Part shown: piece by piece, positions 22,437 to 34,400 of the stretch | Numbering within the stretch: the stretch's first letter is position 1 | Layout: the number at the start of each line of letters is the position of its first letter | Assembly (NCBI GenBank): GCA_032622095.1 | Contig: CP136066.1 | Span: 54,836,609-54,900,608 of the forward strand | Length of the DNA: 64,000 nt | Source: Siphonodentalium dalli | Taxonomy: Eukaryota > Mollusca > Scaphopoda > Gadilida > Siphonodentaliidae | Direction of reading: 5' to 3' | Notes under the pieces: model-generated | Seen by the model: only the letters and a program-made list of their open reading frames with translations | Told to the model about the DNA's origin: nothing | Databases searched by the model: none | Made by a program: the position numbers and the translations under genes

Positions 22437-25400
22437 CTGAAATGGTGAAGGAATATTTTTAATCAATAGTTTCTATTTTGATTAGGCCAAAGAAAATTTA
22501 AAGTGGTTATACGTCAGAACGCAGAATTTTGCATTCAGAACGCAAAATTGTGCGTTCATGGGAAGACCCCAAGTCGGGGTTAAAATTCTCAAAAAAATAG
22601 TCAGTGGGCAGGCTAAAAATTAAAAAAATTAAAATACAAAAACTGCTTCTTCAATTTTTCGTTTCGTACCTCTTTGCGTCTCTTCTGAAATGGTGAAGGA
22701 ATATTTTTAATCAATAGTTTCTATTTTGATTAGGCCAAAGAAAATTTAAAGTGGTTATACGTCAGAACGCAGAATTTTGCATTCAGAACGCAAAATTGTG
22801 CGTTCATGGGAAGACCCCAAGTCGGGGTTAAAATTCTCAAAAAAATAGTCAGTGGGCAGGCTAAAAATTAAAAAAATTAAAATACAAAAACTGATGTTGA
22901 CGTAAAATGTTGGCTTTTCATGTTTTACATTTTATCTGAAAGATTGAGCTAGGATTCATTTTGTTTAGTCTTTACATGCCTCGAAATTAGGGAAAATGTC
23001 CCACGGCAAATTTAACATGTTCACTGCAGACTGAGTTATCTCATACTTCTTGCATGTAATTGAATGGGCGTTGGCTGTGAACTTGTTAATGCAGTGGCGT
23101 GTTAAGATTCCACATGTTGCCACAGCATTTCCCATGGCATTGCTTTATTTCCATGGCCAATTTCGAGGACTGTATTTATATAGACTGTACATTAATAAAC
23201 AATGCTTTGAGTCATTACTAACACTTTATTGACAAAAATACAAGCTGATTTTCATTCACTTCAAAGCCCCCATCTTTTATCAATTGAAAACGAGAAAGGT
23301 ATCCATTATGCCATATGTTACATTGAAATAGAATCTGTCCATTGCGTGCATTAAAGATACGGGTGGCGTTGGCGGTGGGTATGCTGTTGAAATATTCACC
23401 TCCGTCAAAAGCCGCCATAAATAGAAGGAATAGTGAGATATAGACAGACGTTGTTCTTATGCCAATCAGAAATATGGCATAAACAGTGTTATTGTCAATT
23501 TTTTCCCTGTTGTTATGTAAACAAAAGCAAAAAACTTTACATTACCTGGCTTTTGTTTAGATCCGGATATGGTAAACATAAAGAGTGTTATTTGTTATTG
23601 TTTTCCTGATATGAAAATAATAAAGAGCGTTTATATCATTTTTGTATTATTAACCAATAGAATTGCGCTGTGTTATGTAAACAGAAGCACAACTTCTATA
23701 ACACAAGCAGGCTCTTGTTTACGTACACCATCGTACATCTTGATGACAATATACTGTTTACGCGCTGATTATGTTTGTCATATGAGCTGAACTGTATATA
23801 TTTTGGTGTTCCTTCTGTTGGTGGCGATTTGAACAAATATAAATAATTCTGCAACGAACGCCGCCCGTGCATTTAACGGATACAAAGCAACGAACACATC
23901 GCAGTCATCTGAATGCTTTAGTGTTATTGACTGTAATCCAATTTAAATGTGATGCACTCATCTGAACACAACTTCAGATCAAATTGTGAAGATTATAATT
24001 TTTATGGGATTTGTTGACTCTTTACATGATGAACATGCGATTCCTTCAATTCAGCAATATTGTTATGTCAGTCAAAATCCTATGACCACATTGAAACAGT
24101 TTTCCTTTTCTTTAAAGATTAGAGTTTACACATACCATCATCATCATCAACCTCCTCCTCTTCATCTTCAACCTCTTCATCGTCGAAACTTCCACCCTCA
24201 TAATCTTCACCCTCACTCTCCTCCTGTGAATAGCAATAAACATTTAATCAGCTGAAAAAATTATTTGAAATAATTTAAAAGCATATTATATTGTCTTAAT
24301 ATCATGATTTTGAATTTTCTAGTCACTGATTATTTTTTTTATAGTGCCTTGATATACGGTTTTAATAACAACCTATGACATAAATAGTATTAATATGAAT
24401 AGGAATACATATACATCTGCACCATTATTATATTTTATCCATTTGTCTTCTGGTCAATTTCCTGAACACCCCTCCAAATGAATAAGAGATCATTCCAGAT
24501 TATACTTTTATAACTGAATGGGAGAATTCATGTAGTAAACTAAAATAAAGGATTACAGTACTCTTATTTAACCCTTTACCCAACAAACCGGCCAAAACCG
24601 GCCAAATAAAGCTTCAACAGCCTAAAATATCTTGGGTCTGTCTCAATAAAACCATACAAATATGGATATCATTGGAACCGGCTCATTGACCACATTGTGA
24701 TGGTTACAGTTATACCCTGTGCCAATGCATTCTCTTATATATGCGAGTCGACCATAGGTCGCCTCGCATATATAGGAGAATGCATTGGCCTAAACAAAAT
24801 CTTTTTTTAACACTTTTTACCATTTTTTCTTACATTCTTTAACAATTTTATAATTTTTAATGTGTTAAGCCAATGCATTCTCTTATATATGCGAGGCGAC
24901 CTATGGTCGACTCGCATATATAAGAGAATGCATTGGCACATGGCCCTTCTGTTGGGTAAAGGGTTAAATTCAAACAGTACTATTTTTTTTTGCTCAGTTT
25001 TGAATTCATGCATTATGCTGTAAAAATGTGAAATATTGAAATATAAATAATTATGAATAATAAATATAAGTTAATTTTAGTTTAGTTTGACACAGGAAGC
25101 AAGTCAGTTAATATTGCATAGAATCATGTTATATCATAGCCCAATGCTAGTCATCATTCTTGCTTCTTCAACCAAAAATGTTCTCACCCATTCTTATAAT
25201 TATCCCGTTAAATTTTAGAAGTATCCGTTGGTTTGGTCGATTACTATTAGCTGGGATGTTCAGGTATTATAAGCAATAAACAGGAAGGACTTTCTACCAT
25301 ATTCTCCTTATAAAAGAATGGCCCGGAAAGCCAGTGTGAAGGCAGGATGTGAAACACTCTGGCAGGATGATCAAATAGAAACTGAGAATAATCCTGCTCA

Positions 25401-31400: not shown

Positions 31401-34400
31401 TAGTCATCATTCATGCTTCCTCAACTAAATGCTCTCACCCATTATTCTTAAATTAATTCTGCCACTAATGTTTAACTCTCTCCATGTGTAAGGTCTCATC
31501 CTATTTGCTGGAATGTTCAGGTATTATAAGCAATGGTCAGAAAGGACTTTCAAGTCATATTCCCCTAATAAAGGATAGCAGGATCTTGAGGTATTCTGTA
31601 GTTTTCTATACAAGTACAAGCTTTTTATTTAGAGTTTAGAAGCAACAACTAATGACAAGCCTTTCTCTCTCTTGGCTTGTAAGATTATAGAAGAGTTATA
31701 GGTGTAATAATACAGAGCTGCGTCATTGTCACTATATCTACCCCCACTCTGGCAGGGCCTGGTTAGTAGAAACATGGATAGAATTTGTTCTAGGGCAGTC
31801 CAGGGCAGCTTAAAAATGTGAAATACTGTATAGTTACAGCGCTCTTAATTCAGGTTGTTTGGATTCGGCAACCCTTAGACGAGGCCCAGTTTGCTTCAGC
31901 AAATGACTTTGGCATGGCTGATTGCTGTAACCAATTTTATGAGGGCTGATAATTATCAGTAATTAAAAATAAATATCATTGTTAATACTGTATAATTATG
32001 AATATTAAATATCATAGTTAATTATAGTTTCTATTGAAACAGGAAGCAAGTCAGTTAATATTGCATAGAATCATGTTTTATCATAGCCCAATGCTAGTCA
32101 TCATTCATGCTTCCTCAACTAAATGTTCTCACCCATTATTCTTAAATTAATTCTGCCATTAATGTTAACTCTATCCATTTGTATGGCTTGTAAGATTATA
32201 GAAGAGTTTCAGGTGTAATAATACAGAGCTGAGTGACATTGTCACTATATCTACCCTCACTCTGGCAGGGCCTGGTTAGTAGAAACATGGATAGAATTTG
32301 TTCTAGGGCAGTCCAGGGCAGCTTAAAAATGTGAAATACTGTATAGTTACAGCGCTCTTAATTCAGGTTGTTTGGATTCGGCAACCCTTTGATGAGGCCC
32401 AGTTAGCTTCAGCAAATGACTTCGGTATTGCTGATTGCCGTAAACAATTATGAGGGCTGTAACTCTCAATAATTAATAATAAATATCATTGTTATTAAAT
32501 ACTGTATAAATATGAATAATATTAAATATCCTCGTTAATTTTTCTTTCATTTGAAACAGGAAGCAAGTCAATTAATATTGCATAGAATCATGTTTTATCA
32601 TAGCCCAATGCTAGTCATCATTCGTGCTTCCTCAACTAAATGTTCTCACCCATTATTCTTAAATTATCACACTAATTTTAAAAGTATGCATTTCCATTGG
32701 TATAGTTGATTTCTATTTGCTGGGATATTCAGATATTATAAGCAATGGTAAGAAAATGAGCCTATTCATTAACATACATTAATATGTTCAACATTGGTGT
32801 GTGTTGAAATTAAGGAAATGAAACCACTAAATTACCCTTATTCTTGAGATTTTTGTTAACTTTGTATATTCATGTTCATCCAGACCACAATTATTCTTAA
32901 TCTGAGTAACACTGTCATAATTACCAGAATCTGAGACCCAAATTAACCCTATCTATATTTATACTCATTGACGAGTATTTCCATGAGGAAATTTGAAGCC
33001 AACAAGTTAAAAAAAGTTTTATTACCTGAACATCCCTCCAAATAAATAATAGACCATTCAAATGAATGTAAACTAGTTGAATGGGATAATCCATTTAGTA
33101 TAGACAGGGTTAACAAAACAAAGTGGCAATGACAAACTAAGCTACAATAACAATGTGACAAAACAAAATAAAGTAACAACAAACATTCAGGGTTCAAATA
33201 CAGTAATGCCCTAAATAATCGACTCCTTAACCACAGCAGAATTATGGGTAATTTTTCAGGATTTAGTCGGAAATATGGCTTGTTGCCATTCGTCGGAAAG
33301 CTCTCAATGAGAGCTTTCCGACGAATGGCAACAAGCCACACAAATCCTGAAAAATTACCCATAATTCTGCTGTGGTTAAGGAGTCGATATTTAGGGCATT
33401 ACTGTATATAAACACAGCTAGAGCATCTAATCACTCTCATAATTCAGGATACTTATATTTTCACATGCTGATAATTGAAGTGAGAGTGAACATAGATGCC
33501 CCTATGTTAATTAAACTGAAAGTCTAAAAACAATGTGAACGGTGGTTCAATTGAGAAAATAATTTCTTCAAAATATAACAAAAAATTTGTAATCAGATCT
33601 GAGACAGCTTACAAATGTGAAATACTGTATAATTATGAAACAGGAAGCAAGTCAGTTAATATTGCATAGAATCATGTTTTATCATAGCCCAATGCTAGTC
33701 ATCATTCTTGCTTCCTCAAACCAAATACTCATGGCTTAAAACCATTTAATTTTGCGAGAATCAAATTCCCTATCAAGTTAGTCATAAAGCACTGATAATT
33801 GAAACGTTTCGTGAGAATCATTACGAGAATTGATTCGGTGATTCTCATCTAATCTTAATCAAATTTGAATTTTAATATTGGTATGGTCTATTCATATTTA
33901 CTGGGATGTTGAGATATTATAAGCAATCAGCCCTCTTAATTCAGATTGTTTGGCTTCGGCAATCCGCTACGGCAACAGTATGCAGTGGCCCAGTTTGCTT
34001 CAGCAAATTGCTTCGGCAATGCTGATTGCCGTAGCCAATTATGAAGGCTGAAGCAATGGTCAGAAAATGAGCCTATTATTAAGATACCTTAATATTTTCA
34101 ACACTGCTGTGTGTTGAAATGGTTAGCTAAACATTCCTTGAAAGTTATACCTGTGTTTCTGGTGACATGCAAGAAAAAAATAATGGCGGGCGGGTGGCTT
34201 TTAATTAAATTTAATTTTTTCATTTTATTTTATTCCCCCCCCCCCCAGACTTCTCCTTGTTTGTGTACTAAAAAATAATAAAACTAAGTACATAATATTA
34301 GAATATAGTCTAATTTGTTGCTTTATTGAATAAAACATGAAAAAAAAAAAATTTGATTCGGCATAAGTTTGATTTGGCTTATACCTAATTGAAGTGTGGT

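Follow-up and report, generated by a model that had tools for sequence, protein, structure and literature searches.

What kind of RNA might be encoded by a short sequence that recurs eleven times within a single intron, and what might that RNA recognise? The locus lies in a 64,000-nucleotide stretch of DNA from the scaphopod Siphonodentalium dalli (here called the window), inside the gene for ANP32. We consider it very probable that ANP32 hosts a SNORD88-type box C/D snoRNA whose D' guide directs methylation of a C in 28S rRNA, and that this snoRNA was duplicated elevenfold on the spot, with selection acting on box C and on both guides.

The array and its host gene

A tblastn search with human ANP32A recovered the ANP32 exons, which are collinear on the minus strand and run from 49054 to 22375; splice sites were read by eye. 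The exons flanking the eleven copies, at 35328-35269 and about 24226-24137, both encode parts of the acidic tail of ANP32. As described here the array consists of eleven copies between two ANP32 coding exons, and unannotated exons may lie between the copies. The original prediction had placed eleven sequences of exactly 73 nt in one intron on the host strand, and it proved right at all 11 starts, each on the minus strand, which is that of ANP32. Aligned without gaps, each copy agrees with the one at 33643 at 71-73 of 73 positions. When the whole 2.2-Gb genome was searched at the DNA level (E <= 0.001), just these 11 copies came up. The features are as follows, with the copies numbered 1-11 in host order.

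35328 to 40996, minus strand: upstream neighbour of the array intron in ANP32, holding relatives A and B (ends read by eye)
39869 to 39937, minus strand: relative A, with box C, the same D' guide, a different D guide, box D CCGA and a stem paired at 7 of 9 positions (SNORD88 score 28.7 bits)
35952 to 36029, ends approximate, minus strand: relative B, with box C, a GGGU variant of the D' guide, box D CUGA and a stem paired at 6 of 9 positions
24224 to 35268, minus strand: ANP32 intron holding the eleven copies, about 11.0 kb (ends read by eye from GT/AG and reading frame)
33643 to 33715, minus strand: copy 1, the most upstream in the host intron, with a full 9-bp stem
32559 to 32631, minus strand: copy 2, box D UUGA, perhaps decaying
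32042 to 32114, minus strand: copy 3
31348 to 31420, minus strand: copy 4
30671 to 30743, minus strand: copy 5, the reference for internal layout
30023 to 30095, minus strand: copy 6
28805 to 28877, minus strand: copy 7, first base of the putative C' changed
28260 to 28332, minus strand: copy 8, G-U as outermost stem pair
26876 to 26948, minus strand: copy 9
26374 to 26446, minus strand: copy 10, first base of the putative C' changed
25095 to 25167, minus strand: copy 11, outermost stem pair lost and one change between D' and C'

The spacers between copies are recognisable duplications. A splice-donor-like GTGAGA lies about 20 nt upstream of many copies and is absent from those at 28805 and 33643.

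Boxes, stem and internal layout

The elements proposed originally are present as described in the family as a whole, with exceptions in individual copies: a stem GGAAGCAnG / CUUGCUUCC, a bulge AAU, box C AUGAUGA and box D CUGA. Box C reads AUGAUGA in 11 of 11 copies; box D reads CUGA in ten and UUGA in the copy at 32559. The terminal stem is paired at 8 or 9 of its 9 positions, and stem position 8 (A in four copies, C in five, T in two) is mismatched in 7 of the 11. Bulge and stem on the host strand have the register of a kink-turn, as had been proposed. The array therefore has what defines a box C/D RNA, RUGAUGA and CUGA joined by a terminal stem in kink-turn register, and its elements are intronic, on the host strand and within the typical 60-90 nt. 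A strict scan of both strands of the window for box C, an uninterrupted stem and box D gave five matches: four array copies and one element at 24046-24150. The reversed control and the complemented one gave 0 each.

The internal boxes of copy 5 were placed from the Rfam SNORD88 alignment and from the C/D consensus. In RNA numbering the layout is:

1-9: stem
10-17: bulge and box C
18-30: D' guide
31-34: D' box, AUGA
41-47: putative C' box, AUGAUUC
48-60: D guide
61-64: box D
65-73: stem

The D' box of the array is AUGA instead of CUGA, and C' is weak; both points count against the SNORD88 reading.

A SNORD88-like guide before D'

Judged by its D' guide, CUAGCAUUGGGCU, the array RNA looks like SNORD88 (human HBII-180, yeast snR76). 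The half that can be recognised as a known guide precedes D'; the original prediction had considered the guide before box D and had left the target open. For the D' guide that target can now largely be supplied, from the likeness to SNORD88/HBII-180 and from 28S rRNA, and the D guide stays without a canonical rRNA target.

Rfam at its gathering score returned no match in the window. With a relaxed threshold, copy 5 matched two families under gathering: SNORD88 at 25.2 bits (E 0.0012 for 221 nt) and, slightly better, SNORD82 at 28.2 bits (E 0.00062). The SNORD82 match is scattered over the boxes and A/U-rich stretches; that to SNORD88 is one block, AUGAUGnCUAGCA-UGGGCU-UGA, and over guide and D' box 15 of 17 letters are identical. 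The array thus carries a D' guide of SNORD88 sequence in register to D'. Against the gathering score of 46 bits for SNORD88 (RF00604), twelve elements reach 25.1-28.7 bits and B reaches 15.8 bits. In PMC10911272, an antisense oligonucleotide against SNORD88A/B/C is complementary to human UGAUGUCCAGCACUGGGCUC; the human guide that this oligonucleotide implies agrees with UGAUGACUAGCAUUGGGCUA of the window at 16 of 20 letters.

Run on the 2.2-Gb genome, the Rfam SNORD88 model gave 98219 first-look candidates, of which 53 were scored, and 15 matches at E <= 10, the best at E 0.3 and all under the Rfam cut-off. Twelve of these, including the top five, are in ANP32 (the 11 array copies and relative A); the three others, in unrelated places, score 26.1 bits. 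Single SNORD88 scores are not significant genome-wide, but their gathering in one gene is. A pattern for box C, guide and box D (TGATGNNNAGCAYTGGGY followed after 18-48 nt by CTGA), which leaves out the copy at 32559 with its UUGA box D, matched the whole genome 12 times at 11 loci, namely ten array copies and B, and reversed it gave 0 matches.

The predicted 28S target

The guide segment AGCAUUGGGC pairs with 28S GCCCAGUGCU over 10 bp, including one G-U, and G26, the fifth nucleotide from D', lies opposite a C. Pairing of at least 10 bp with D'+5 facing C is found both with the animal's own 28S-like fragments, and hence with DNA of the same genome, and with the 28S of other eukaryotes. The pattern searches for 18S and 28S did not find intact rDNA of this animal in the genome, and its 28S letters come from dispersed fragments: the 28S pattern has five exact places, all such fragments, and two with one mismatch. 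An 18S pattern allowing two mismatches had 0 matches in the genome. The own 28S-like fragments read GCCCAGUGCUCUGAAUG at all five exact places. One of the five (L016) is the only one with an LSU match, confirmed by Rfam just upstream of the target site.

Guides were scanned against an rRNA set made up of the own 18S and 28S fragments and of the 18S, 28S and 5.8S of contaminant eukaryotes. For the D' guides of the array and of A the SNORD88 site is the best rRNA site, in the right register; the D' guide of B scores better at another 28S site on the same fragment. Complementarity alone is modest, since 44 of 1000 shuffled D' guides score as high without a mismatch and 95 of 1000 with one allowed. 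The 28S target carries weight because the site is known for SNORD88, yeast snR76 and Neurospora CD12, and not by the duplex alone. The source tables list human SNORD88, snR76 and CD12 against one another for this LSU site, and PMC5597630 assigns SNORD88 to Cm3701 (3680 in the old numbering). From the equal register we infer that the target C is the equivalent of human Cm3680. The predicted methylation point is the C of 28S GCC-C-AGUGCU.

If the copies are expressed, boxes C and D and the terminal stem would fold into a kink-turn after splicing, and a box C/D snoRNP would assemble there. The D' guide CUAGCAUUGGGC(U) would then pair with 28S GCCCAGUGCU, and fibrillarin would 2'-O-methylate the C five nucleotides from D', the presumed equivalent of human LSU Cm3680. 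Copy number might in turn serve dosage.

Relatives in the neighbouring intron

Relatives A and B, like the identity of the D' guide, had been overlooked in the original prediction. Their 3' halves are unlike that of the array, carrying CCCCGCAAUGU ahead of box D, and their stems differ as well. The only stretch that A has in common with all 11 units, 26-29 nt long, comprises box C and the D' guide; A and B agree at 76% over 107 columns, a likeness that runs past the 3' end of the RNA. Each has one defective part, perhaps a sign of decay. The arrangement suggests that an older pair of copies occupied one intron and that local duplication next door produced eleven copies of an altered version with a different 3' half. 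An apparent 9-10 bp pairing of the D guides of A and B with a 28S (L023) fell inside a group I intron of a contaminant contig and was rejected.

Exact matches to box C plus guide outside ANP32 number three (L004, L005 and L006); the same search gave 46 places with one mismatch. L005 and L006, on contig 5, belong to a stretch that is present twice (95.6% over 1.7 kb) and carry AUGAUGACCAGCAUUGGGAUCUGA, with box C, guide and a D' box CTGA in exact register and a SNORD88 score of 20 bits. Neither has a recognisable box D with stem within 130 nt, and at L004 there is no CTGA in the stretch examined. L005 and L006 could represent a remnant, or a chance likeness. Among the places examined in the genome sequence searched, a complete element was found in ANP32 alone; this gene may not be the only related locus, L005 and L006 being candidates.

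The second guide

What, then, is the function of the other half of the RNA? In the D guide, UAUGCAAUAUUAA before box D, every column is invariant across the 11 copies, just as in the D' guide. In the form given originally, UGCAAUAUUAA, it had no canonical target in the rRNA set, its best match without a mismatch being 8 bp, which 993 of 1000 shuffles equalled or bettered. The D guide forms a 16-position duplex, containing a single mismatch and three G-U pairs, with the animal's own 18S AUAGUGGUGCAUGGAAU, whose letters come from two dispersed, Rfam-confirmed 18S fragments that agree with each other. Of 1000 shuffles, 29 do as well; with a protist 18S the pairing is better, and 0 of 100 shuffles equal it. 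In the 18S duplex the mismatch at D+7 and the G-U pairs at D+4 and D+6 lie beside the methylation point, and this imperfect pairing is only a lead. The candidate methylation point would be the 18S U in AAUAG-U-GGUGCAUGG. The site may be close to 18S-Am793, which is guided by Neurospora CD11/snR53. The best pairing with U2 snRNA covered 9 positions and was matched by 4 of 100 shuffles; it was rejected as weak.

Possibly, though we hold this tentatively, the intron contains eleven chimeric guides, in which a SNORD88 half is joined to a new conserved 3' guide with its own target, perhaps in 18S near AUAGUGGUGCAUGG. Internal cuts or hidden splice sites would have to free these RNAs, because one intron normally yields one snoRNA. 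Rather unlikely is a true C/D family whose selected work is done by the D guide, on 18S rRNA, snRNA or mRNA, the SNORD88 half being an inherited remnant. The equal invariance of the two guides and the pairing with 18S, better still in the protist, are what such a family would lead one to expect. Against it stand the absence of a mismatch-free pairing beyond 8 bp in the rRNA set, the flaws beside the methylation point and the lack of a convincing site in U2; moreover, the part that A, B and the array have in common is the D' guide, not the D guide.

Constraint on the 73-nt core

Pairwise diversity is 0.024 in the core (96/4015 sites) and 0.217 in the 80-nt flanks (951/4382), a gap of about ninefold over all pairs, and the core is the less diverse in 55 of 55 pairs of units, pairs that are not independent of one another. 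Equal rates in core and flanks, which would have spoken against selection as originally proposed, were thus not seen. With gaps scored as change, 67 of 73 core columns are invariant, compared with 10 of 120 and 4 of 120 in the two flanks. The variable core columns are 1, 8, 37, 41, 61 and 73; none is in box C or either guide, and one is in box D. Farther from the core, diversity in 25-column windows is 0.2-0.6, with many gaps. The 5' flank is intermediate (0.12 in the 25 columns from -40 to -16), so that conservation has no sharp edge on that side. The full-unit alignment took in 6 of 10 units, those of <760 nt, and among the stretches covered by all six no other is as conserved as the core. 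No compensatory change in the stem was seen among the 11 copies, so what supports the stem is pairing and register, not covariation among these copies.

Boxes, stem, kink-turn register and slow evolution of the core all agree with the original prediction of an amplified, constrained family of intronic box C/D snoRNAs, as judged from sequence. Selection would have held box C and both guide halves as the spacers diverged. Could the core instead belong to a neutral local repeat, kept alike by gene conversion or recent duplication? The spacers are indeed recognisably duplicated, and some neighbouring units are nearly identical in and out of the core (for 31348 and 32042, 0/73 core differences and 1/93 outside it). 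The ninefold gap nevertheless makes this highly improbable, and conversion tracts would have no reason to stop near the stem, where the low-diversity stretch ends. It is equally improbable that the array has a cis function, such as pairing to the intron it sits in and thereby directing how ANP32 is spliced, of the sort reported for certain human snoRNAs (PMC10324135): many copies do sit in one intron of one gene with acidic-tail exons on both sides, but the guide already has a good explanation in trans.

Comparison with known snoRNA families

The kind of RNA and the proposed chemistry are known and ordinary; what is new is the host gene, the 3' half and the number of copies. A literature search brought up no description of an ANP32-hosted SNORD88 array, although this does not prove that none exists. 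With SNORD88A/B/C (HBII-180, RF00604) the array shares box C, the D' guide sequence and its register to D', and consequently the predicted 28S target. A further likeness is the presence of several copies in one host gene, the human copies being three by name. The array differs in scoring under the Rfam cut-off, in length (73 nt against 91 model positions), in its D' box AUGA, in the D half, in its host ANP32 and in packing eleven copies into one intron.

Yeast snR76, Neurospora CD12 and chicken GGgCD10 are given in published tables as guides, or counterparts of guides, for the same LSU site. GGgCD10 is described there with this guide in its 5' half and the U83 guide in its 3' half, and so resembles the array in joining a SNORD88-type guide to an unrelated 3' guide. 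These three, compared here by their descriptions, differ in being single or two copies in other hosts.

Many near-identical C/D copies in one transcription unit are also found in SNORD115/116 and SNORD113/114, which contain orphan guides, each in its own intron of a non-coding host. The ANP32 array is not built in the SNORD115/116 manner, with a repetitive non-coding host whose introns hold a single copy each; instead, a recognisable rRNA guide is repeated inside one intron of a protein-coding gene. The mammalian arrays are, moreover, described as imprinted and eutherian, another difference from ANP32. According to PMC8178906 and PMC2653536, C/D snoRNAs usually duplicate locally within a host gene, and the new copies mostly come to lie in separate introns. 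Measured against this, a single intron with eleven copies is unusual. It also raises a question of processing, since animal introns generally yield one snoRNA each.

If expressed, the array would be a natural test of how many snoRNAs one intron can release and of the need for many copies of one rRNA methylation guide. According to PMC10911272, knock-down of human SNORD88 slows fibroblast proliferation, so that dosage at this site has a known phenotype. Finally, one box C/D' half joined to two different 3' halves within a single gene forms a record of guide recombination.

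Inverted repeats within the array and dispersed rRNA sequences

Three insertions of an inverted-repeat element of about 80 nt (GCCAATGCATTCTCTTATATATGCGAG...) lie within the array of snoRNA-like copies, each consisting of a pair of arms 71 nt apart, and between copies 1 and 2 of the array (host order) the two 47-nt arms of a perfect inverted repeat enclose a 77-nt loop.

24717-24944, inverted-repeat element, insertion 1
27273-27500, inverted-repeat element, insertion 2
27882-28109, inverted-repeat element, insertion 3
33218-33264 / 33342-33388, arms of the perfect inverted repeat

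The ~80-nt element is also present outside the array, at other places in the genome that include L001 and L016. At L001 (1380-1570), two of its arms flank an antisense 28S rRNA fragment of about 75 nt, an arrangement that looks as if the rRNA had been captured by a foldback element. Short pieces of 28S and 18S rRNA genes occur at unlinked sites: L001, L002, L003 (two), L016, L033 and L034.

Sequences upstream of the copies

Read in the host sense, most array copies are preceded, at a distance of 40-20 nt, by a partly conserved ATAATGGGTGAGAnCATTTnGTTGA stretch that contains a donor-like GTGAGA. The GTGAGA is missing before the copies starting at 28805 and 33643.

Possible relatives and U2 snRNA genes on contig 5

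The duplicated contig 5 stretch (L005 and L006) carries a box C, a SNORD88-type guide and CTGA in the D' register, with no box D and stem detected within 130 nt. A further one-mismatch word of the box C/guide type lies at G000:C5:111289331. The same contig holds U2 snRNA genes arranged in tandem at 920-bp steps (G000:C5:203269600-203304407), and diverged U2-like copies lie about 0.5-1.5 Mb from that tandem array.
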